Positions 29,501-41,424 of a stretch of DNA of 64,000 bases are shown piece by piece. Under the pieces are notes generated by a model. It was not told the DNA's origin, searched no databases, and saw only the letters and a program-made list of their open reading frames with translations. The first letter of the stretch is position 1, and each line of letters starts with the position of its first letter. The stretch is from contig NZ_VWNC01000001.1 of assembly GCF_013387455.1 (NCBI RefSeq), positions 248,001 through 312,000 on the forward strand, read 5' to 3'. The stretch comes from Mariprofundus sp. NF. Lineage in GTDB: Bacteria; Pseudomonadota; Zetaproteobacteria; Mariprofundales; Mariprofundaceae. A program made the translations under genes and the position numbers.

Positions 29501-30751
29501 ATGAGTGAAAGTATCGTTCGAGCGTTGAAATGTCGTGAATGCGGGCAGGAGTATCCGATTGAGCCTACGCATGTATGCGAGTTCTGCTTTGGCCCGCTTG
29601 AAGTGGCCTACGATTATCACAAGCTGGAGGGTAAATTTACCCGTGAGCTGATCGAGTCTCGTCCGCAGACCATGTGGCGCTATAAAGAGCTGCTGCCGAT
29701 TGATGGTGAGCCAACTGTCGGTGCACAAAATGGTTTTACACCGCTTGTTCGTGCAAAGCGTCTTGAAAAAGTGCTTGGTGTTAAAGAGCTCTATATCAAG
29801 AACGATTCAGTCTGCTATCCAACCCTCTCCTTTAAAGATCGCGTGGTTTCCGTGGCCCTCTCCAAAGCTGTTGAGTTTGGTTTTACCACAGTGGCCTGTG
29901 CCTCTACCGGCAACTTGGCCGGTTCGGTTGCCGCTAATGCGGCCGCAGCAGGGTTGGAGTCCTACGTATTTATTCCACATGATCTGGAGCAGGGCAAGGT
30001 GCTCGGTGCGGGTATCTTCGGCACCAATATCATTGGCATCAAAGGTAAATATGACGATGTGAATCGTCTCTGTTCTGAAGTGGCCGGCAAATATGGCTGG
30101 GCCTTTGTGAATGTGAATGTGCGTCCGTTTTATGCTGAAGGCTCCAAGTCGCTGGCTTATGAGGTGATGGAGCAGCTGGGCTGGAAAGCACCGAAACATG
30201 TGGTTGTGCCGATGGCATCCGGTTCGCTCTGCACCAAGGTGGATAAGGCGATCAAGGAGTTCATCAAGCTTGGTCTGATCGAAGACAATGGCACCGCGGT
30301 CTATGGTGCGCAGGCGACAGGCTGCTCACCGATCTCCAAATCTGTGAAAGATGGAACCGATATGATCCATCCTGTGCATGCCGATACGATCGCCAAATCA
30401 CTGGCTATCGGTAACCCTGCTGACGGCTTCTACGCTAATCGCGTTATTAATGAGTCTGGCGGCTGGGCTGAAGATATCTCTGATGAAGAGGTGGTGGCTG
30501 CCATGAAGCTGCTGGCTGAGACTGAAGGCATCTTTGCCGAAACTGCAGGCGGTGTAACGCTGGGCTGTGCAATGAAGATGATTGAGTCCGGAAAATTGCC
30601 TCGCGATGAGTCCATTGTACTCTGCATTACAGGCAACGGCCTGAAGACTCAGGAAGCGATAGTGGATGCGATCACCAAACCGCGTATTATCAACGCCAGT
30701 TTAAAAGAGTTTGATCTGTTGGCGGAAGCTGACGGCGTGGCTGACGCATAA
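29501..30751 (+). CDS. thrC: Threonine synthase family PLP enzyme under SAM riboswitch
   Basis: A 416-residue fold-type II PLP enzyme. An N-terminal zinc ribbon CRECGQEYP...HVCEFCFGPLE (9-32) precedes the catalytic domain; the PLP lysine is in YPTLSFKDRVVSVAL near 109, and phosphate-binding ASTGNLAGSVAA near 138. These match threonine synthases, which turn O-phosphohomoserine into threonine. However, it is the first gene after a SAM-I riboswitch and directly precedes a sulfur-carrier gene and a NIL-domain gene, a context of methionine rather than threonine synthesis. It may be a true ThrC whose expression affects the homoserine branch point, or a paralogue that adds sulfur to phosphohomoserine to make homocysteine. 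Sequence alone does not separate these. Confidence 0.85.
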   Translation: MSESIVRALKCRECGQEYPIEPTHVCEFCFGPLEVAYDYHKLEGKFTRELIESRPQTMWRYKELLPIDGEPTVGAQNGFTPLVRAKRLEKVLGVKELYIKNDSVCYPTLSFKDRVVSVALSKAVEFGFTTVACASTGNLAGSVAANAAAAGLESYVFIPHDLEQGKVLGAGIFGTNIIGIKGKYDDVNRLCSEVAGKYGWAFVNVNVRPFYAEGSKSLAYEVMEQLGWKAPKHVVVPMASGSLCTKVDKAIKEFIKLGLIEDNGTAVYGAQATGCSPISKSVKDGTDMIHPVHADTIAKSLAIGNPADGFYANRVINESGGWAEDISDEEVVAAMKLLAETEGIFAETAGGVTLGCAMKMIESGKLPRDESIVLCITGNGLKTQEAIVDAITKPRIINASLKEFDLLAEADGVADA

Positions 30752-30786: not shown

Positions 30787-31065
30787 ATGAGTGTATCTGT
30801 ACGTATTCCAACCCCGCTGCGTAAGCTGACTGCTGGCGCTGATGAAGTGACCGTCGATGGCGCAACTGTCGGTGATGTGATTGAAAGCCTCGAGGCTGCA
30901 CATCCCGGCCTGAAAGAGCGCCTGTGTGATGATGCCGGTGAAATCCGCCGCTTTGTAAATGTTTATGTGAACGACGAAGATGTTCGTTTTCTTGAAGGTC
31001 GCGCTACTGCTCTGAAAGATGGTGATGAGCTCTCCATCGTTCCGGCCATTGCAGGCGGCTGCTAA
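30787..31065 (+). CDS. ThiS/MoaD/CysO-type sulfur carrier protein ending Gly-Gly-Cys
   Basis: A 92-residue ubiquitin-like sulfur carrier: [20 protein letters not shown] start, [33 protein letters not shown] and the tail [15 protein letters not shown]. Carriers of this group are adenylated and thiocarboxylated on a terminal Gly-Gly. Here one extra residue, Cys, follows Gly-Gly, so either it is trimmed by a protease (as HcyS-Ala is by HcyD in Wolinella) or the Cys has a role of its own. AGGAGAG precedes ATG 30787. The adenylyltransferase is encoded at 32458-33279 and the sulfide source at 33383-35725 in the same island. The next gene starts directly after the stop. Confidence 0.9.
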
Positions 31066-31305
31066 ATGAAATTCCGTGTTTATCTGACCTTTGACGAGGC
31101 GACCGTTCGTGCTCCGATTATCTGGCAGCTGGGCAAAGAGTTTGATCTGATTACCAATATCCGCACGGCTGAGGTGAGGGATCATATGGGTCTTGTCGGC
31201 CTTGAGCTTGAAGGCAACAACGATGTGATCGATGCCGCGGTGAAGTGGCTGGGTGAGCAGGGTGTTCAGGTTGACCCGATTGAACAGAGCATCATAGAGG
31301 GCTAG
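31066..31305 (+). CDS. NIL-domain protein
   Basis: A 79-residue stand-alone NIL domain (KFRVYLTFDEATVRAPIIWQ, then the DHMGLVGLELEG motif near 45). NIL domains occur at the C-terminus of the methionine transporter ATPase MetN, where they sense methionine, and in ferredoxin fusions linked to homocysteine synthesis. The stop of the sulfur-carrier gene directly abuts its ATG, so the pair is coupled. A small ligand-sensing or partner role in sulfur transfer is likely. Confidence 0.88.
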   Translation: MKFRVYLTFDEATVRAPIIWQLGKEFDLITNIRTAEVRDHMGLVGLELEGNNDVIDAAVKWLGEQGVQVDPIEQSIIEG

Positions 31306-31306
31306 G

Positions 31307-31409
31307 AACCACTAAGACACAGAGGCACAAAGAAAACCAATCTTGATATTTACTTTGTGTCTTCGTGCCTTTGTGGCGAAAAAATCTCTGGTGAGAAGTT
31401 TGTGGTGAA
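31307..31409. repeat. Palindromic degenerate-heptamer repeat (copy 1)
   Basis: Left arm near 31308-31331 (CCACTAAGACACAGAGGCAC and on) and right arm near 31350-31382 are inverted copies, about 19 of 24 matching. It belongs with copies at 33289, 40048 and 59629. It fills the gap between the NIL and cysK genes and would fold into a long hairpin in the mRNA. Confidence 0.75.
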
Positions 31410-31423
31410 GATAGGAGTTTGAA

Positions 31424-32356
31424 ATGGCAATTTTTAATAATGCTGCAGAAGCAATTGGTAATACCCCGCTGGTTCGTCTGAACCGGATCGGTGCTGATAG
31501 TGGTGCTGAAATTGTGGCCAAGCTGGAGTTTTTTAATCCGCTGAATTCGGTGAAAGATCGTATTGGTAAAGCGATGATCGAAGCGGCCGAGGCTGATGGA
31601 CGCCTTAAAGCCGGTGGTCTGATTGTTGAGCCGACCAGTGGCAATACCGGTATTGCTCTGGCCTTTGTGGCTCGTGCCAAGGGTTACCGCTGTATCCTGA
31701 CGATGCCTGAGTCGATGAGTCTGGAGCGCCGTAAGCTTCTTAAGCTACTGGGTGCCGAGCTTGTGCTTACGCCTGCAGAGAAGGGCATGAAGGGTGCAAT
31801 TGCCAAGGCTGAAGAGATTGCCTCGACTACTGAAGGCGCATTCCTGCCTCAGCAGTTTGAAAACCCTGCCAACCCTGAGATTCACCGCAAAACCACGGCT
31901 CAGGAGATCTGGTCTGACTGTGATGGCAACGTTGATGCGATTGTTGCAGGCGTCGGCACCGGCGGCACGATCACCGGAGTTGCAGAGGTGCTCAAGCAGC
32001 GCAATCCGAATTTTAAGGCAATTGCCGTTGAGCCTGCTGATTCACCCGTGATTTCAGGTGAAGCGCCCGGCCCTCATAAAATTCAGGGTATCGGCGCAGG
32101 TTTTATTCCGAAGAACCTGAACGTCGATATTATTGATGGTATTGAGAAGGTCACCAATGATGAGGCCTTCGAGATGGCTCGCCGTCTTGCTGCTGAAGAG
32201 GGTATTCCCGGTGGCATCTCATCCGGTGCAGCCGTAATGGCTGCAGTACGTGTAGCCAGCAAGCCTGAGATGAAGGGTAAGCGTATCGTGGTAATTCTGC
32301 CATCCATGGCTGAGCGTTATATGTCCACCGACCTGTTCAAAGGCATCGAAGTTTGA
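31424..32356 (+). CDS. cysK: Cysteine synthase (O-acetylserine sulfhydrylase)
   Basis: A 310-residue PLP enzyme with PLP-lysine motif [16 protein letters not shown] (Lys near 44), [12 protein letters not shown] near 69, and [15 protein letters not shown] near 178. It makes cysteine from O-acetylserine and sulfide. Because a ThiS-like carrier and its adenylyltransferase flank it, a thiocarboxylate-using CysM role, as in Mycobacterium, is possible; length and motifs fit CysK or CysM. It is bounded on both sides by palindromic repeats within one co-directional gene series. Confidence 0.93.
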
Positions 32357-32363
32357 TTTTTTT

Positions 32364-32447
32364 GTGAGGTGTCAGGGGTAAGGCGCCAGGTGTAGCTGTT
32401 GGTTGCGCTTACGCCCTACCCTTTACTCCTCACTCCTTACTCCTCAC
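32364..32447. repeat. Palindromic repeat of a second type (GGAGTAAG-like units)
   Basis: Left arm 32364-32390 (GTGAGGTGTCAGGGGTAAGG and on) and right arm 32412-32447 (ending CTCCTTACTCCTCAC) are degenerate inverted copies built of short units. It lies between cysK and the MoeB-type gene. A related half-unit run (CCCCTGACCCCTGACCC) occurs at 43127-43143. Confidence 0.65.
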
Positions 32448-32457
32448 GAGGTTATTC

Positions 32458-33279
32458 ATGATTGATTTTACAGAAGCACAGATCGAGCGCTATTCGCGCC
32501 ATATTATTTTGCCGGAAGTCGGTGCCGAGGGGCAGAGCAAGCTGCTTGAGTCCAAGGTGTTCATGATCGGTGCAGGTGGGCTGGGTTCGCCCGTCGCCTA
32601 TTATCTGGCTGCCGCCGGTGTCGGCACCATTGGTATCGCCGATGCTGACGTGGTGGATTCGTCCAACCTGCAGCGCCAGATTATTCATAATCAGGACCGC
32701 ATTGGCATGCCCAAGGTGGAGAGTGCGCGTGAGACAATGCAGGCGCTGAACCCGGATGTGAAGGTCAATACCTACAACTATTTTGTTACCGAAGATAATA
32801 TTCGCGACATTATTCGCGACTATGATCTGGTGATTGATGGCTGTGATAATTTCCCGACCCGTTTCCTGGTCAATGATGCCTGTTACATGGAGAAGATTCC
32901 GCTGATTTCCGGTGCAATGTTCCGCTTTGAAGGGCAGGTGGCGACATTCAAACCACATCAGGTGAAAGGCGCACCTTGCTATCGCTGCCTCTATCCTGAG
33001 CCACCACCGGCAGGTCTGGTTCCATCATGCTCCGAAGCGGGAATCTTAGGTGCCCTGGCCGGTGCTGTGGGCACCATTCAGGCCGTTGAAGCGGTGAAAG
33101 AGTTGCTTGGTATCGGCGATTCTCTGGCCGGTAAGCTGATGGTTTTCGATGCACTGCGTATGGAGTGGAAGAAGCTGAAGCTGCGTAAGGATCCGGGTTG
33201 CCCGCTATGCGGTGATAATCCAACCATTACAGAGCTGGCTACCTATGAGCAGGCTTGTGAATTGAAGTTTGGTGAGTAG
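32458..33279 (+). CDS. MoeB/ThiF/HesA-type adenylyltransferase for the sulfur carrier
   Basis: A 273-residue E1-like enzyme. Visible: the N-terminal IERYSRHIILPEVG, ATP-binding VFMIGAGGLGSPVAYYLAAA near 37-56, DGCDNFPTRFLVND, the Cys in APCYRCLYPEPPPAG, and the zinc-binding CYRC...CPLCG pair. It activates a carrier's C-terminal glycine as acyl-adenylate for sulfide transfer. The ThiS-like carrier two genes upstream is the obvious substrate; no moaA, moaC, moaE or thiazole genes are nearby, so molybdopterin or thiamine synthesis is a less likely sole role. There is no fused rhodanese domain. Confidence 0.92.
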   Translation: MIDFTEAQIERYSRHIILPEVGAEGQSKLLESKVFMIGAGGLGSPVAYYLAAAGVGTIGIADADVVDSSNLQRQIIHNQDRIGMPKVESARETMQALNPDVKVNTYNYFVTEDNIRDIIRDYDLVIDGCDNFPTRFLVNDACYMEKIPLISGAMFRFEGQVATFKPHQVKGAPCYRCLYPEPPPAGLVPSCSEAGILGALAGAVGTIQAVEAVKELLGIGDSLAGKLMVFDALRMEWKKLKLRKDPGCPLCGDNPTITELATYEQACELKFGE

Positions 33280-33382: not shown

Positions 33383-35725
33383 ATGACAGAATTTGATTTC
33401 GCACACACATCCGATGTCGATGAATTTGAGGCTGGTTACAAGGCGTTCAAAGAGGGGCGTATGTCCGAAGAGCGGTTTACACCGTTTCGTCTGCAGATGG
33501 GTGTTTACGGTCAGCGTCAGGAGGGTGTGCAGATGGTGCGGGCCAAACTGCCCGGTGGCTGCATTACAGCAGATCAGATGGATGTTATTGCCGAGTGCGT
33601 TGAGCTCTATGCCGGGCGTATGCCAACAGATGGCACGCTGACTGAGGCGCCTGAGAAGGTGGCGCATGTGACGACGCGTCAGGATATTCAGGCCAACTTC
33701 GTTGCGCTTGATGATGTGCCGGAATTTCTGCGCAAGCTTGATGCTGCAGGGATGACCACACGTGAGGCGTGCGGTAATACCGTACGCAATGTCACCACCT
33801 GTTTTCTGGCAGGTCGCTGCCCGGCTGAACATGCCGATGTGACCATTCATGCCCGTAAATTCGCAGAGTTCTATCTGCGTCATCCGCTGGGCCAGCAGTT
33901 TCCACGCAAATTCAAGGTGACCTTCTCCGGTTGCGCCAGCGATTGCGGTCTTTCAGGCATGCACGATGCCGGTTTTATTGCCACGCACAAAGATGGTAAA
34001 GCCGGTTTTCAGGTGTGGGCGGCCGGTGGTCTCTCATCCCAGCCTATGGGCGCACTGCTACTGGAAGAGTTTATCGAAGAGTCGGAGCTGTTTGTGGTCG
34101 GTGAAGCGTTGATGCGCATGCACTTTAAATACTCCGATCGCAAACGCCGTGCCCGTGCACGTTTGAAATATGTGGCCCAAAAACTTGGTGCAGAAGGTTT
34201 TGTCGAGGAGTACAGAAAACAGCGTGCAGTGATCGAGAAGACCCATGCTGATGATTCAGGTTATGCAGAGGCAAACTGGCGCACACCTACTGCAGCGATG
34301 CCATTTGCTGACTCAGGTGTGGTGGATCAGCACAATGGTAAATCCGCCATCCTGCTCAATCTGTTCCGTGGTGATCTGACACCGGATCAGTGCCGTGCCG
34401 TGGCCAATGCCGCACGCGCTGCCGCAACCGATGAGCTGCGTGTGACTACTGAGCAGGGCATGGTGCTCTGCGATGTTGATGCTGAAAATGTTGCTGCCGC
34501 AGTGGCTATTCTTAATACTGCAGGGTTGCAGACTGAGTATGCACGTGGCATCTCCGATGTTGTGGCGTGCCCCGGCACTGAGACCTGCCGTCTTGGTATC
34601 ACCTCAAGCCGCGGTCTTGCTGCAGCGCTGCAGCCGTTGATGGCCGATCTGAAGAAGGACACTGCGTTGGCCGGTATCACAGTTAAGGCATCCGGCTGCC
34701 AGCACTCCTGTGGTCGTCACCATATTGCTGATCTCGGTTTCCACGGCATGGCCAAGAAGGTGGCCGGTCAGGCTGTACCTCACTACCAGCTGCATGTGGG
34801 TGGTTCAGGCGTTGCCGGTTCTCCGTTGGCCTTTGCGACCGATCCTGTGCCGGCTAAATATGCACCGGAAGCGGGTATTGCTGTGCTGAATGCCTATAAA
34901 GCGGGCCGCAGTGGTGATGAAAGCATGCACGACTGGGCCACGCGCTTGGGCAAAGAGGGTATCTCAGAGATTCTGACGCCATTTAAGGCTGATGCCGGTG
35001 AAGTTGAAGGATTGATCTACGACTGGAGCGAGAACGAAGCATTTAATACCAAGGGCAACAAGAAGGGTGAGTGTGCCGGAGCGGTACTATCGATGTCTGA
35101 CGCGCTGATCTCTGAAGCCGAGTACGAGCTGTTGATTGCGCGTGCCCATCTTGACGCGATGTTCTGGGCGGAAGCGCTGACCGCGCTGCGTCGCTCCTCT
35201 ATCTCTGCAGCACGTGCTTATCTGGTGCCTTATGGTGAAGCACCTGAAGAGGATAGCGCTGTCTTTGGTCTGCTGGCGGCGAATGCTGCTGCGGATGCTG
35301 ATGTGATTGCCGGCCTCAATGCTGTGCAGTCGGCTCTGATGAATATCGATCTGGCTGATCCGGGTGCCGGGGTGACCAAGCTGAAAGAGGTGCAGAGCGC
35401 ATGGGTAGCACTGGCTGCTAAACGTTTTGCGGCCGTACCTGAAGCAGTAGAAGCGACTGCACAAGCTGAAACTTCAACCGAAACCTCTGCCGATGTTGTG
35501 CTGCTCGATCTCTCCGGTGTGGCATGTCCGATGAACTTTGTGAAAACCAAGATCAAGCTGACCATGATGCCTGTCGGCTCGCTGCTGGACGTGATTCTTG
35601 ATGATGGCGCACCGATTGAGAATGTTCCGCTCTCCCTTATTGAGCAGGGGCAGAAGATTCTCGCTAAAGAGCAGATCTCTGATACTCAGTGGAAAATCCG
35701 GGTAGAGAAGATCGGCAGCATCTAA
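33383..35725 (+). CDS. Sirohaem sulfite reductase fused to a C-terminal TusA domain
   Basis: A 780-residue fusion. Residues 1-560 form a nitrite/sulfite reductase: two ferredoxin-like half-domains and the sirohaem/4Fe-4S ligands Cys396-x5-Cys402 and Cys439-x3-Cys443. An approximately 100-residue helical segment of unknown type spans 580-690 and an Ala/Thr/Glu linker follows. The last 75 residues are a full TusA domain with active Cys715 in GVACPMNFVKTKIK. The reductase makes sulfide from sulfite with six electrons; the TusA domain could accept the product sulfur or link it to the thiocarboxylate system. Position before APS reductase and ATP sulfurylase genes supports assimilatory sulfite rather than nitrite reduction. 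The fusion is in one frame, without sign of a frameshift. Confidence 0.93.
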   Translation: MTEFDFAHTSDVDEFEAGYKAFKEGRMSEERFTPFRLQMGVYGQRQEGVQMVRAKLPGGCITADQMDVIAECVELYAGRMPTDGTLTEAPEKVAHVTTRQDIQANFVALDDVPEFLRKLDAAGMTTREACGNTVRNVTTCFLAGRCPAEHADVTIHARKFAEFYLRHPLGQQFPRKFKVTFSGCASDCGLSGMHDAGFIATHKDGKAGFQVWAAGGLSSQPMGALLLEEFIEESELFVVGEALMRMHFKYSDRKRRARARLKYVAQKLGAEGFVEEYRKQRAVIEKTHADDSGYAEANWRTPTAAMPFADSGVVDQHNGKSAILLNLFRGDLTPDQCRAVANAARAAATDELRVTTEQGMVLCDVDAENVAAAVAILNTAGLQTEYARGISDVVACPGTETCRLGITSSRGLAAALQPLMADLKKDTALAGITVKASGCQHSCGRHHIADLGFHGMAKKVAGQAVPHYQLHVGGSGVAGSPLAFATDPVPAKYAPEAGIAVLNAYKAGRSGDESMHDWATRLGKEGISEILTPFKADAGEVEGLIYDWSENEAFNTKGNKKGECAGAVLSMSDALISEAEYELLIARAHLDAMFWAEALTALRRSSISAARAYLVPYGEAPEEDSAVFGLLAANAAADADVIAGLNAVQSALMNIDLADPGAGVTKLKEVQSAWVALAAKRFAAVPEAVEATAQAETSTETSADVVLLDLSGVACPMNFVKTKIKLTMMPVGSLLDVILDDGAPIENVPLSLIEQGQKILAKEQISDTQWKIRVEKIGSI

Positions 35726-35745: not shown

Positions 35746-38379
35746 ATGACAACACTGAATCCATTTGCCAATCCGGGCCGCTGTAAGCTGGCGCTGGTAA
35801 GTCAGGGTGTCTCCCTGCCGGATGGTCTGCAGGGTGCCTCGCACTGGGTTGCGCAGGCCAATGCCACCGAATCAGTGATCGATATCAGGTTACCATCCGG
35901 CCATTTTGCTACGGTGCCTGTGGCCCAACCCTATACGAAGAGTAGTTCGATTCAGCTCAGGCAGCAGGATAGTGATGGCAATGCTTGTCTGCATTGGGGT
36001 GATGAAACGCTGGATGTGCAGCTTCTGCCTGCACCACGTTTTTACCGTAACAAAACACGCTCCGGTGCCCGCATGGGTAGCTTTGCCTCACTGCATGAGA
36101 ACCTGCTGATGCTGCACCCGATTATGGGCTGTGGTTTTTTTGCCGGGCAGAATCTGGCCTGTCACTACTGCCAGTATGATTCGATGCTTAATGAAGATGA
36201 GCCGCCGATGCGCGATCCGCTTGAGTTGGTGGAGGTGGTGCGTGCCGCGCTCTCAGAGCGTGAAATTGATACGGTCTATCTCTACAACGGTTTTGCACCG
36301 GGTGATGATGTAGGTCTGTCCAGATTGGTACCGGTCATTGCTCTGCTCAGGCGTCATCTTGGCCATCGACAGATTGCCCTGGAGACCGTTGCGCCGAAAG
36401 ACACCTCGGTAATTGATGCGCTCTATGCTGCTGGTCTGGATATTTTTGTCTGCAATCTGGAAGTGCACGATGCCGAGCGCTTTGCAGAGGTGTGTCCCGG
36501 CAAAGAGCAGGTGGGTGGTCAGGTAGCAATCTGGAAGGCACTGGACCATGCCCGTCAGGTATTTCGTGGCGGCGCAGTAGTGAGTCATCTGATTGTTGGT
36601 CTGGATGATGTGGAATCAACCAAGAAGGGCATCGATGCGCTGATCTCGCATGGCGTTGTGCCGCTGCTACAGCCGTTCAGGCCGCTGCCGGGAACTCCGC
36701 TGGAGGGGCAAGTTGGACCTTCACTGGAAGAGATGGAGGAGCTATTCCTGCACCTCTATGGTGCCATCAGTGCTGCAGGATTCTCGACACATCGGCTGCG
36801 CCATATGGGGCGTGTGTTAACGCCAATGGAGAGTCGTGTTCTTGATGGCCGAGAGGCGATGCTTAGTGAACGCTGGGTCTCCTCATCCATAGGGCGTCAC
36901 TGGGACGGCTGGATGGATGGCCTGCGCCGCCATCTGCGTGCCGGTCACGGCGAAGGTGATGAAACCCTTCTGGATCGCAGACCGATGCATGTGTTGCTGG
37001 CTGGCGAGGCGCTGCCTTTTGCCGCTCTGGTTGTGGTAGCACTGCTGGCCTTTGCTGCAGGAAACATGGATGCACCCCAAGGACTGAGTCAGCACGGCTG
37101 GAGCTCGTTGATTGTCTTTGCGCTGTGTCTGCTGCTATGGGTGACACAGCTGCTGCCGCTGGCGGTGACGTCACTGTTGGGGCTGGCGCTATTGCCTCTG
37201 CTGGGTGTGTTGCCGGCAACCAATGTCTTTGCTCTGTTTGGCAATCCGGCTGTGTTTTTCATTCTGGGCGCTTTTATGCTGGCGGCAGGAGCGATGCAGA
37301 GCGGCCTCTCTGAGCGCATGGCACTGCTGACCATCGATCGCTTTGGCACCAGTCCGCGCCGCTTGCTGCTGACGATGTTGCTGTTGCCTGCCTTTATGGC
37401 CTGTTTCATGCCTGAACATGCTGTGGCAGCGCTGTTTTTGCCGATAGCCTGGGAGATTGTGCGCAGCCTTGGACTTAAGGCGGGCAATGGTTATGCCCAG
37501 TCGATCTTTTTTGCACTGGCCTGGGGCGCGATCATTGGTGGTGTGATCACCCTGCTTGGTGGTGCCCGTGGGCCGCTGGCATTGGCGCTGACCGAAGAGC
37601 TGACCGGAGAAACCTTTTCGTTTGCAGACTGGACGCTGGCAGCAGCACCCATTGCACTTTCCGTGTTGTTTGTTTCAGCACTGGTTTTGATGCGCATTAC
37701 ACCTCTGGTTGGTATCGACATCTCATCTGCGCGCCAGCGCATCTCGTTGCGCAGGCTTGAGCTGGGTGATTTCGACATCAAATCGAAAGCGATGGCGGTT
37801 CTGCTTGTGGTTACCATGCTGGCCTGGATCTTAGCCGGGCACTCCAGTTCACTGGCTGGCATTGCTCTGATCAGCGTTGTATTCATGTTTGCCCTGCGTC
37901 TGGTGAGCTGGCGAGCGGTTGAGAAGCATGTCAACTGGGGCGTGGTATTGATGTACGGCGGTGCGATCGCCATTGGTAAAGCATTGACCGTGACCGGGGC
38001 AGGTATCTGGCTGGCGGCATCAATTTTCCCTGAAAGCGTAGCAGGACTGGCCCTGCTGGCCCTGCTGGCGCTGATCACGCTCTTTTTCACTGAAGGGGTC
38101 AGTAACGCGGCAGCTGTGGCCATTGTTCTGCCGGTAGCCATCCCCATTGCGGCCGCAGCTCAGATCGATCCTGTCACGGCGGCACTGGCTGTGGGCATTG
38201 TCTCCGGCTTTGCCTTTATGCTGCCGATGGGCACGCCGCCAAATGCGATGATTTTCGGTACAGGTTATGTGCGCGCTTCACATATGCTGCGTTACGGGGC
38301 ACTACTCTCCCTGGCAGCATTTGTACTATTTATGATCACAGTGTCGGTCTGGTGGCCTATGCTGGAAAGGATTGGGTAA
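35746..38379 (+). CDS. Radical SAM domain fused to DASS/SLC13-type anion transporter
   Basis: An 877-residue fusion. I start at ATG 35746, 20 bases after the reductase stop. Residues 1-400 contain a radical-SAM-like domain with Cys129-x9-Cys139-x2-Cys142 (in GCGFFAGQNLACHYC), a spacing unlike the canonical Cx3Cx2C, followed by ALETVAPKD, NLEVHDAERF and SHLIVGLDDVESTKKG, segments typical of radical-SAM barrels. Residues 425-877 are about 11-12 transmembrane helices of the divalent anion:sodium symporter family, with FGNPAVFFILGAFMLA and the C-terminal substrate motif GFAFMLPMGTPPNAMIF. Placed between sulfite reductase and APS reductase genes, the transporter half is most likely a sulfate permease. 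The job of a membrane-tethered radical-SAM domain is unknown. Confidence 0.88.
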   Translation: MTTLNPFANPGRCKLALVSQGVSLPDGLQGASHWVAQANATESVIDIRLPSGHFATVPVAQPYTKSSSIQLRQQDSDGNACLHWGDETLDVQLLPAPRFYRNKTRSGARMGSFASLHENLLMLHPIMGCGFFAGQNLACHYCQYDSMLNEDEPPMRDPLELVEVVRAALSEREIDTVYLYNGFAPGDDVGLSRLVPVIALLRRHLGHRQIALETVAPKDTSVIDALYAAGLDIFVCNLEVHDAERFAEVCPGKEQVGGQVAIWKALDHARQVFRGGAVVSHLIVGLDDVESTKKGIDALISHGVVPLLQPFRPLPGTPLEGQVGPSLEEMEELFLHLYGAISAAGFSTHRLRHMGRVLTPMESRVLDGREAMLSERWVSSSIGRHWDGWMDGLRRHLRAGHGEGDETLLDRRPMHVLLAGEALPFAALVVVALLAFAAGNMDAPQGLSQHGWSSLIVFALCLLLWVTQLLPLAVTSLLGLALLPLLGVLPATNVFALFGNPAVFFILGAFMLAAGAMQSGLSERMALLTIDRFGTSPRRLLLTMLLLPAFMACFMPEHAVAALFLPIAWEIVRSLGLKAGNGYAQSIFFALAWGAIIGGVITLLGGARGPLALALTEELTGETFSFADWTLAAAPIALSVLFVSALVLMRITPLVGIDISSARQRISLRRLELGDFDIKSKAMAVLLVVTMLAWILAGHSSSLAGIALISVVFMFALRLVSWRAVEKHVNWGVVLMYGGAIAIGKALTVTGAGIWLAASIFPESVAGLALLALLALITLFFTEGVSNAAAVAIVLPVAIPIAAAAQIDPVTAALAVGIVSGFAFMLPMGTPPNAMIFGTGYVRASHMLRYGALLSLAAFVLFMITVSVWWPMLERIG

Positions 38380-38383
38380 CAAC

Positions 38384-39106
38384 ATGAGTGTTTTAGTTGA
38401 ACAGGCGGTAAGCCTGTTGAAACAGGCCAAAGAGGCCCATGGTGATGGTCTTGTCTACCCGTGTAGCATGGGTCTTGAAGGCTCAGTCATGGTGGATCTG
38501 ATCAGTAAATATGGGCTTGATATCCCTATCATGACACTTGATACCGGACGACTGCCGCAGGCGACCTATGATGTGATCAGTGCCTTTGAGGATCGTTACG
38601 GCATCCGTGTCAGGGTTCTGTTCCCCGATTGCCATGAAGTGGAAGCGATGGTTCGTGAAGATGGGGTAAATCTGTTTAGAAGGTCGCCGGAGCTTCGCAA
38701 GAAGTGCTGCGATATTCGTAAACTACGGCCATTGATGCGGGCACTGGAAGGCAAACAGGCGTGGATCACCGGCAGGCGTCGCCAGCAGTCAAAGGGGCGC
38801 TCTGATCTGCAGTCGATAGAGATTGATGTGGTGTATGGCTTGAAAAAATATAATCCGCTGCTGGAGTGGAGCCTTGATGATGTGGAGGCGTATGTGCGTG
38901 AGAATGATCTGCCGTACAACAAACTTCACGATGCCCACTATCAATCCATTGGCTGTGAATGCTGCACCCGTGCGATTACGGTAGGTGAAGATGAACGGGC
39001 CGGTCGCTGGTGGTGGGAAAATAGTGATGTGGCGGCAGAGTGCGGCCTGCATGTTATGAGCATTAAACAGGTAACCGGCGACATTGAAGGCGGCGAAGGA
39101 ATTTAG
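38384..39106 (+). CDS. cysH: Assimilatory APS reductase (CysH family, 4Fe-4S type)
   Basis: A 240-residue thiol-dependent reductase turning adenylyl sulfate into sulfite. The 4Fe-4S ligands are present as Cys108-Cys109 (RKKCCDIRK) and Cys191-x2-Cys194 (GCECCTRA), which marks the APS-using type rather than the PAPS type. PP-loop-like CSMGLEGSVMVDLI is near 27-40, and TLDTGRLPQATYD follows. The C-terminal catalytic cysteine motif (ECGLH) is present near 226. Start ATG 38384 is chosen over TTG 38372. No APS kinase (cysC) gene is present, which fits. Confidence 0.94.
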   Translation: MSVLVEQAVSLLKQAKEAHGDGLVYPCSMGLEGSVMVDLISKYGLDIPIMTLDTGRLPQATYDVISAFEDRYGIRVRVLFPDCHEVEAMVREDGVNLFRRSPELRKKCCDIRKLRPLMRALEGKQAWITGRRRQQSKGRSDLQSIEIDVVYGLKKYNPLLEWSLDDVEAYVRENDLPYNKLHDAHYQSIGCECCTRAITVGEDERAGRWWWENSDVAAECGLHVMSIKQVTGDIEGGEGI

Positions 39107-39115
39107 GAGAAAGAG

Positions 39116-40039
39116 ATGTCTGAAAGCAATATATCAGAACATAAACTGACACAGCTCAAGGCGCTGGAGGCGGAGTCGATTCATATCATCCGCGAAGTGG
39201 TGGCGGAGTTCCGTAATCCCGTGATGCTCTATTCGGTGGGTAAGGATTCCAGTGTGATGTTGCATCTGGCGCGTAAGGCTTTTTACCCTGCGCCGTTGCC
39301 TTTTTCGCTGCTGCATGTGGATACCGGTTATAAGTTCAAAGAGATGTACGAGTTTCGTGACAGCTACTGTAAAGAGGTTGGTGCGGATCTGATTGTGCGT
39401 CGTAACGAGGATGCCATTGCCAGGGGTATGAATCCGAAAGAACATGGTGTGGCTCGTTGCTGTGGTGCGTTGAAGACCAAGGGTCTGTTGGATGCGCTGG
39501 AAGAGGGCGAATATGATGCGGCCTTCGGTGGTGCGCGTCGTGATGAAGAGCGAAGCCGAGCCAAGGAACGTGTTTTCTCCATGCGTGATGAGTTCGGTCA
39601 GTGGGATCCTAAGAATCAGCGGCCTGAGTTGTGGAGTCTCTATAATGGCAAGATCCATGATGGTGAATCGGTGCGTGTATTTCCGATCTCCAACTGGACT
39701 GAGATGGATGTATGGCTCTATATCCGCGAAGAGAAGATTCCGATTGTGCCACTCTACTTCGCCAAAGAGCGGTTGATGGTGGAACGCAAAGATTTTCTCA
39801 TTCCCTATTATGAAGAGACCAAAGACCAGCTACTTGAAGGCGAAGAGCCTACTATGGTGATGAGTCGTTTCCGTACCCTGGGTTGCGGGCCTTGTACGGG
39901 AGCTGTGCGCTCGGATGCTACCAATATGGATGAGATTGTGATTGAAGCTGCTGCGGCACGTCGTTCGGAACGTGAAACGCGCATCATCGATCACGGTTCG
40001 AATTCGATGGAAGACAAAAAGAAAGAAGGCTATTTCTAG
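39116..40039 (+). CDS. cysD: Sulfate adenylyltransferase small subunit
   Basis: A 307-residue CysD, which with the GTPase CysN makes adenylyl sulfate from ATP and sulfate. The PP-loop is [20 protein letters not shown] near 34-53; [16 protein letters not shown] and [12 protein letters not shown] are family hallmarks, and the C-terminus with [12 protein letters not shown] is typical. AGGAGAAAGAG precedes ATG 39116. It is separated from cysN by a palindromic repeat rather than the usual direct abutment. Confidence 0.97.
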
Positions 40040-40140: not shown

Positions 40141-41424
40141 ATGACTAAATTGAATATTAAGATGACTAAGGAGATCGAGCTGCTGCGACTGGTGACAGTG
40201 GGCAGTGTGGACGATGGTAAATCGACATTGATCGGTCGTCTTCTCGTTGATACCAAGGGTGCATTCGAGGATCAGCTTCTGGCCGTACGCAAGAAGAAAG
40301 GCACGGTGCATATCGCTTCGGCTGCCGAGATTGATCTGGCCATGCTGACCGATGGCCTCTCCGCTGAGCGTGAGCAGGGCATCACCATTGATGTGGCTTA
40401 CCGCTATTTTGCTACGCCAAAACGCAAGTTCATCATGGCTGATTGTCCCGGGCATGAGCAGTACACCCGCAATATGGTGACCGGTGCCTCCACCGCCAGT
40501 GCGGCGATTATTCTGATTGATGCACGTAACGGTGTGATGCCGCAGACCAAACGTCATACCCATATTCTGGGACTGCTTAACATCCCTCACCTGATTGTAG
40601 CGATAAACAAGATGGATCTGGTTGGCCACGATCAGGCAACCTATGAGAAGATTCGTGAAGATATGCAGGCCTACTGCGCCAAGCAGGGTGTGAAAGATCT
40701 GATCTGCCTGCCGATGTCGGCACTTGATGGTGATATGGTTGCCGTTCGCGGTAAGAATCTGGACTGGTATAAAGGCAAAACACTGCTGGAGACACTGGAG
40801 ACACTGCCTGCGCTGGGTGATATCGATAACAAGCCGTTCCGTATGCCTGTGCAGTTGGTGAATCGTCCACAGACCGCAGATCTTCCTGATTACCGTGGCT
40901 TTATGGGCACGATTGCTTCAGGTACGGTTAAAGTCGGTGACCAGATCGTATCTGTACCGAGCGGTAACACTTCAACAGTCAAAGAGATTGTCACTTTCGA
41001 TGGTAATCTGGATGAAGCATTCGCACCGCAGAGTGTGACGTTGACGCTCAATGATGAGATCGATATCTCACGTGGAGATATGATCACCCATGTCGATGAC
41101 AAGGCGATGGATGCCAAAGAGCTGACTGCCAATATCTGCTGGATTGGCGATGAGCCGTTGACCGAACGTCAGAAGTACATCGTTAAACATACCACCAATA
41201 GTGTCAAAGCGATGGTGGCCAGTATCGATTTCAAGACCGACATTCATACGCTGGATCATCAAGAGGATGCAACAGAGCTGGCCATGAACGAGATAGGCCA
41301 GATCACTCTGAAGCTGATGAAACCACTACACTATGATACCTATGCTGAGAATCGCACGACCGGCAGCTTTATCCTGATTGATACCTTTACCAACAATACC
41401 GTTGGTGCAGGTATGATTATTTGA
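40141..41424 (+). CDS. cysN: Sulfate adenylyltransferase large subunit (GTPase)
   Basis: A 427-residue elongation-factor-like GTPase driving sulfate activation. G1 is GSVDDGKSTLIG near 21-32, G3 DCPGHEQY near 101 and G4 NKMD near 156. It ends after domain III (IDTFTNNTVGAGMII) and lacks the fused APS kinase found in CysNC, matching the APS reductase type here. Last gene of the sulfur island, followed by a clear terminator. Confidence 0.96.
   Translation: MTKLNIKMTKEIELLRLVTVGSVDDGKSTLIGRLLVDTKGAFEDQLLAVRKKKGTVHIASAAEIDLAMLTDGLSAEREQGITIDVAYRYFATPKRKFIMADCPGHEQYTRNMVTGASTASAAIILIDARNGVMPQTKRHTHILGLLNIPHLIVAINKMDLVGHDQATYEKIREDMQAYCAKQGVKDLICLPMSALDGDMVAVRGKNLDWYKGKTLLETLETLPALGDIDNKPFRMPVQLVNRPQTADLPDYRGFMGTIASGTVKVGDQIVSVPSGNTSTVKEIVTFDGNLDEAFAPQSVTLTLNDEIDISRGDMITHVDDKAMDAKELTANICWIGDEPLTERQKYIVKHTTNSVKAMVASIDFKTDIHTLDHQEDATELAMNEIGQITLKLMKPLHYDTYAENRTTGSFILIDTFTNNTVGAGMII

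Follow-up and report, generated by a model that had tools for sequence, protein, structure and literature searches.

The window, by which we mean the whole 64,000-nucleotide (64-kb) stretch of Mariprofundus sp. NF DNA analyzed, contains a block of genes conserved throughout the Zetaproteobacteria in the order thrC, SAMP, NIL, cysK, moeB, sulfite reductase-TusA, rSAM-DASS, and usually cysH, cysD, and cysN (Table 1). The rSAM-DASS gene encodes a radical SAM (rSAM) domain and a DASS/SLC13 transporter in a single frame, which runs from the ATG at 35746 to the TAA at 38377-38379 without a stop over 877 codons. A GTG at 35689 would lengthen this frame into the upstream gene; we place the start at ATG 35746 given that the conserved N-terminus of the orthologs fits it. 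The initial annotation had located the gene between those for sulfite reductase and APS reductase, and it does lie between the sulfite reductase-TusA gene and the (P)APS reductase gene cysH. The sulfite reductase hemoprotein with its C-terminal TusA domain is itself conserved class-wide and also occurs in G078, a single genome from another class. From what is known of the families, the operon as a whole resembles a sulfate-reduction pathway that supplies a route to cysteine based on a sulfur-carrier protein, and the SAMP-NIL-cysK-E1 block (30787-33279) resembles that cysteine route.

Table 1. Genes and protein features at the rSAM-DASS locus, with positions counted along the window.
Feature	Positions	Strand	Basis
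thrC, threonine synthase, start of conserved block	29501..30751	+	TIGR00260 over cut-off; synteny
SAMP1/ThiS-type small sulfur-carrier protein ending GGC	30787..31065	+	NF041918, 73.6 bits vs cut-off 60; PF02597
NIL-domain protein	31066..31305	+	PF09383
cysK-type PLP enzyme	31424..32356	+	PF00291; operon position
MoeB/UbaA-like E1 adenylyltransferase	32458..33279	+	PF00899; NF004281 over cut-off
Sulfite/nitrite-reductase-family hemoprotein-TusA fusion	33383..35725	+	PF01077, PF03460, PF01206
rSAM-DASS fusion gene, 877 aa	35746..38379	+	Open frame; NF045502 and TIGR00785 over cut-off; class-wide orthologs
Radical SAM barrel (predicted), residues 117-362	36094..36831	+	AF2 model; lipoyl synthase and other rSAM fold matches
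Cluster motif Cys129-x9-Cys139-x2-Cys142	36130..36171	+	Invariant in 67/67 orthologs; identical spacing in NitD
C236 and C250, extra invariant cysteines (CNxE ... CxGK)	36451..36495	+	67/67; NitD lacks both
Linker, residues 363-425; stop/start junction of the split clade falls here	36832..37020	+	Junction sequences; dN/dS 0.02-0.08
DASS/SLC13 transporter domain, residues 426-873	37021..38364	+	Full TIGR00785; Foldseek to NaDC3, NaS1, VcINDY
Pro556-Glu557-His558 replacing first Ser-Asn-Thr motif	37411..37419	+	68/68; ungapped VcINDY alignment
Gly605-Gly606-Ala607-Arg608 replacing first GTPPN loop	37558..37569	+	68/68; common to EH/GGAR DASS subgroup
Second motif Ser786-Asn787-Ala788, largely canonical	38101..38109	+	S and N 68/68
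cysH, (P)APS reductase, likely start codon 38384	38384..39106	+	PF01507; NF002537 and TIGR02055 over cut-off
cysD, ATP sulfurylase small subunit	39116..40039	+	PF01507; synteny
cysN, ATP sulfurylase GTPase subunit	40141..41424	+	PF00009; synteny

The proposed in-frame union of an rSAM domain with a complete DASS transporter was confirmed by domain matches scored against curated cut-offs. The N-terminal half matched the NCBIfam model NF045502 (variant_rSAM) over residues 42-338 (8.2e-49; 166.5 bits against a cut-off of 125), and the C-terminal half matched TIGR00785 (DASS) over profile positions 2-444 of 444 (9.6e-73; 245 bits against 198.6). The Pfam Radical_SAM model scored 28.7 bits, marginally below its cut-off of 29.5, and Na_sulph_symp scored well above its own. 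Folded alone with seven homologs, residues 1-405 gave an AF2 model (pTM 0.75, pLDDT 69) in which strands and helices alternate in a barrel, in agreement with the TIM-like SAM barrel initially suggested; confidence in this model is low at residues 128-152, the region of the cluster motif, and beyond residue 355. The best solved match of the rSAM part was lipoyl synthase (Z 17.2 over 244 residues at 3.4 A), followed by NifB, HydE, and BioB at Z 14-16 (Foldseek, VIA-align). As matches of a predicted model to solved structures, these establish an rSAM fold rather than a function. Lipoyl synthase, biotin synthase, HydE, and ThiH share the rSAM barrel with the fusion protein (Z about 14-17) but are only 11-16% identical to it and space their cluster cysteines differently, and the fusion lacks the auxiliary CX4CX5C motif that lipoyl synthase has at its N-terminus. 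Matches to PPR and designed-repeat structures were set aside as repeat artefacts, and a BFVD structure search gave no useful match. The full-length AF2 model was weak (pLDDT 59), so the relative placement of the domains was not read from it; its C-terminal part still matched NaDC3, NaS1, and VcINDY (Foldseek). The architecture had been put forward as one not previously described, and we likewise found no paper on it in the open-access literature. As far as we searched, the two halves belong to known families and their union is undescribed.

The gene is strictly conserved and almost universal among the iron-oxidizing Zetaproteobacteria, and it lies within the sulfate-assimilation operon of the class. 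A match was present in 75 of the 78 Zetaproteobacteria genomes and in 39 of the 39 high-quality ones, and the protein of Mariprofundus sp. KV is 95% identical. Homologs with the identical fusion do exist: of the 70 ortholog loci read, 62 have a single frame and 7 a pair of neighboring genes, and the remaining one is truncated at the end of its contig. Chance, an assembly artefact, and merged genes are ruled out by the recurrence of the fusion in many species, including the single-contig genomes G046 and G048. As to whether the halves are really two separate genes, there is one gene in this genome and there are two in one sister clade. The stop and start codons of the split genes touch or overlap in most cases (TGATG, ATGA, or short gaps), and the split halves remain side by side. 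In G044 (L066, about 1194-1462), the two split genes are ~270 bp apart, and this interval, bounded by inverted GTGTCCCATCC / GGATGGGACAC ends, resembles a small mobile insert. In L078 (G032), the DASS part shifts frame near residue 649/650, by a frameshift or an assembly error. In a 65-protein tree, one change accounts for the split state, which is confined to a single clade (SH-aLRT 86). Given that all three families of Zetaproteobacteria have the fused state, the split is more simply read as one later fission, with the root of the tree not fixed. No fusion was found outside the class in 397-genome samples of Pseudomonadota, in which NF045502 members are stand-alone frames of 360-436 aa. The genome-contig scan, with sampling essentially within Pseudomonadota, gave close relatives only; viral contigs yielded no match, and plasmids yielded NitD-like or weak matches only, among the matches listed.

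The canonical rSAM cluster motif is CX3CX2C. The CX9CX2C motif claimed for the fusion protein is present and was kept in 67 of 67 orthologs covering the site, as were C236, C250, R105, R109, R312, R352, and R356; further invariant polar residues in the 67 orthologs are H117, E163, Y178, Y180, E239, K253, and E362. Between close species, dN/dS was 0.05-0.10 for the rSAM domain, 0.02-0.08 for the linker, and 0.03-0.06 for DASS, and selection on both halves is purifying. A degenerate or decorative rSAM domain is ruled out by the invariant motifs and the low dN/dS. The motif spacing, described as unusual in the initial annotation, is not unique, given that NitD/MSMEG_0568 proteins have the same one. 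These proteins belong to the NF045502 family and are 24-28% identical to the fusion protein over most of the domain, and Gly107, His117, Glu163, Glu239, and Lys253 are common to both. To our knowledge, no reaction has been assigned to NitD. NitD differs in having a C-terminal CxxCxxC that the fusion protein lacks, in lacking C236 and C250, and in standing alone beside a nitrilase, whereas the zetaproteobacterial rSAM domain is fused to DASS. The nearest rSAM relatives within the sampled phylum are 25-28% identical and have the CX9CX2C motif, and a nitrilase adjoins them in 13 of 15 loci read; the exceptions are L093, a relative with CX3CX2C spacing, and L096, which matched by chance and is unrelated. 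No nitrilase match was found within the window. Against TIGR04043 (MSMEG_0568/NitD), the fusion protein scored 106.3 bits, below the cut-off of 303.7. Orthology to NitD is ruled out by this cut-off, the motifs, and the neighborhood, and we assign the fusion's rSAM domain to a separate subfamily given the absence of the C-terminal CxxCxxC, its own invariant set, and the failed TIGR04043 cut-off. NitD/MSMEG_0568 of the Nit1C cluster has been linked to cyanide assimilation in Pseudomonas (PMC11049912).

The transporter half resembles VcINDY, NaS1, and NaDC3 in its full-length TIGR00785 match, its fold, its second SN motif, and its TPPN loop, but it differs in carrying PEH for the first SNT, GGAR for the first GTPPN, and an N-terminal rSAM domain. 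The transporter aligns with VcINDY without gaps across the first hairpin, and both replacements were found in 68 of 68 proteins. In NaS1, the equivalent residues are Ser139 and Thr141, which bind sulfate, and Asn140, which binds Na1 (PMC10980263). With this Ser-Asn-Thr missing, the description of the transporter as "sulfate-type" is not supported by its binding-site residues and rests on operon context only. The ligand could differ from sulfate given that Pro-Glu-His replaces the sulfate-binding first motif and Gly-Ala the loop at NaS1 259-260. Prokaryotic DASS sulfate permeases are known and vary at these loop positions (PMC5840216), so the ligand is not readable from the loop residues. Stand-alone DASS proteins in several other genomes (G078, L100-L104, and L107) carry [PG]EH...GGAR in place of SNT...GTPPN, so the pattern marks an EH/GGAR subgroup rather than decay; all of these members stand alone, in contrast to the fused zetaproteobacterial DASS. 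The GEH...GGAR proteins of L100-L104 and L107 form a little-described subgroup with a neighboring gene that we take, by translation, to be like that of the universal stress protein UspA, and no cys operon genes were found at these loci.

G078 carries a related operon (thrC-SAMP-NIL-cysK-moeB-cysH-sirTusA-sat-DASS), in which what we take by translation to be sat (ATP sulfurylase) stands in place of cysDN. Its DASS is stand-alone, 41% identical, has the same PEH and GGAR motifs, and directly follows sat; no rSAM match of the fusion's family was found in G078. Given this arrangement, the transporter belongs with sulfate activation and a sulfur-oxyanion substrate is favored, and the rSAM part was either gained in Zetaproteobacteria or lost in G078. 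Within the class, the DASS gene of L113, L114, L116, L125, L127, L138, and L062 is followed by cysD with no cysH in between, and the DASS-cysD gap is 47-113 bp in the four loci measured. In L074, the interval between cysH and cysD holds, presumably (by translation), an inserted DsrE-like gene and a stand-alone TusA. No CysT/CysW permease scored over cut-off in any of the 78 class genomes. SulP transporters, a group that includes sulfate carriers, were found in 70 of the 78, Mariprofundus sp. NF included, so the fusion need not be the sulfate importer and redundancy is possible. A role as the sole sulfate route of the cell is, with SulP this widespread, unsupported.

We tentatively propose, as a reading that may well be correct though we hold it short of probable, that the protein is a membrane permease for an oxyanion whose N-terminus carries a cytoplasmic, catalytically active rSAM enzyme, which would belong to a new subfamily and act in the sulfur pathway. 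The predicted rSAM domain very probably binds a cluster, a role of the fusion in sulfur assimilation is nearly as probable, a sulfur oxyanion is the likely ligand, and the rSAM half is probably a true enzyme rather than a sensor. Building on the fold, motif, conservation, fusion, and operon, which come from sequence or prediction, we infer a scheme for what the cluster does, which ligand and ion are carried, and what the radical acts on, in which the transporter would import sulfate or a closely related sulfur oxyanion via the DASS elevator mechanism. Given that Glu557/His558 stand in place of the usual Na1 half-site, coupling may be to protons rather than Na+. A 4Fe-4S cluster would be held by Cys129/139/142 of the rSAM domain, which would cleave SAM to a 5'-deoxyadenosyl radical acting on an anionic small molecule or a protein partner of the same sulfur pathway. 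The substrate is probably not that of NitD, given that many invariant residues, among them several Arg and two Cys, are subfamily-specific. The fusion would hold enzyme and permease at 1:1 stoichiometry and at the membrane. Counting against this proposal, sulfate itself lacks the C-H bond that a radical enzyme would attack. The tethered-enzyme proposal is supported by the domain models, the fold matches, the invariant residues, the class-wide operon, the adjacency of the split halves, and the operon of G078 with its stand-alone DASS after sat, and also by the lack of CysT/CysW in the class and the precedent of prokaryotic DASS sulfate permeases (PMC5840216).

The initial annotation had raised the ideas that a sulfur compound might be modified along with anion uptake, or that SAM or the cluster state might gate the permease. 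A closer coupling, in which transporter and rSAM domain work as one machine, with the anion handed to the radical site or the permease gated by SAM/4Fe-4S occupancy, is possible but rather doubtful. We also considered that the rSAM fold could serve regulation, binding SAM and a 4Fe-4S cluster to gate the permease in response to SAM, iron, or oxygen, with no net radical catalysis taking place. The specific fusion of rSAM to a transporter fits such feedback, as does SAM being an end product of sulfur assimilation, and DASS N-termini are cytoplasmic, as established for VcINDY. However, the many invariant residues, including two extra Cys and several Arg, go beyond the needs of SAM and cluster binding, the rSAM domain is a separate polypeptide in one clade, which is less natural for a gate, and the G078 transporter occurs without it; we regard a purely sensory role as unlikely. 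We consider it equally improbable that the DASS domain imports an organic sulfur anion, such as a sulfonate, whose C-S bond the rSAM domain breaks to give sulfite for the adjacent sulfite reductase. This would account for the altered substrate motif, the Arg-rich invariant set, and the position of the gene between sulfite-making and sulfite-using enzymes, and an organic ligand would offer a radical enzyme a target, yet genes for sulfate activation, and in most genomes for (P)APS reduction, lie in the same operon, and the closest related transporter outside the class adjoins ATP sulfurylase without an rSAM domain; moreover, we know of no rSAM enzyme that itself frees sulfite from a sulfonate. 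Modification of a neighboring protein or cofactor (sulfite reductase-TusA, SAMP, or siroheme) by an rSAM domain that the permease merely tethers or co-regulates is very unlikely, given that the fusion partner is a transporter rather than Sir, that the related sirTusA of G078 has no detectable rSAM of the fusion's family, and that, although the position directly after sirTusA is constant and the nearest solved structures are cofactor-chemistry enzymes (lipoyl synthase, BioB, HydE, ThiH, and NifB), such matches are typical of rSAM barrels and no functional indication.

We know of no earlier case of a mechanical link between membrane transport and radical SAM chemistry or binding, and the doubtful one-machine arrangement would, if true, be the first. 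If the halves are functionally coupled, the fusion would link radical SAM chemistry to membrane transport, give a handle on DASS transporters without a classical SNT site, and place the CX9CX2C rSAM family, which is little understood, in a physiological setting other than Nit1C. The relative at L093 (6539-7621) is stand-alone, has the CX3CX2C spacing (GCGFSCQYC), and lies in an unfamiliar gene cluster; its motif may represent the ancestral form that gave rise to CX9CX2C.
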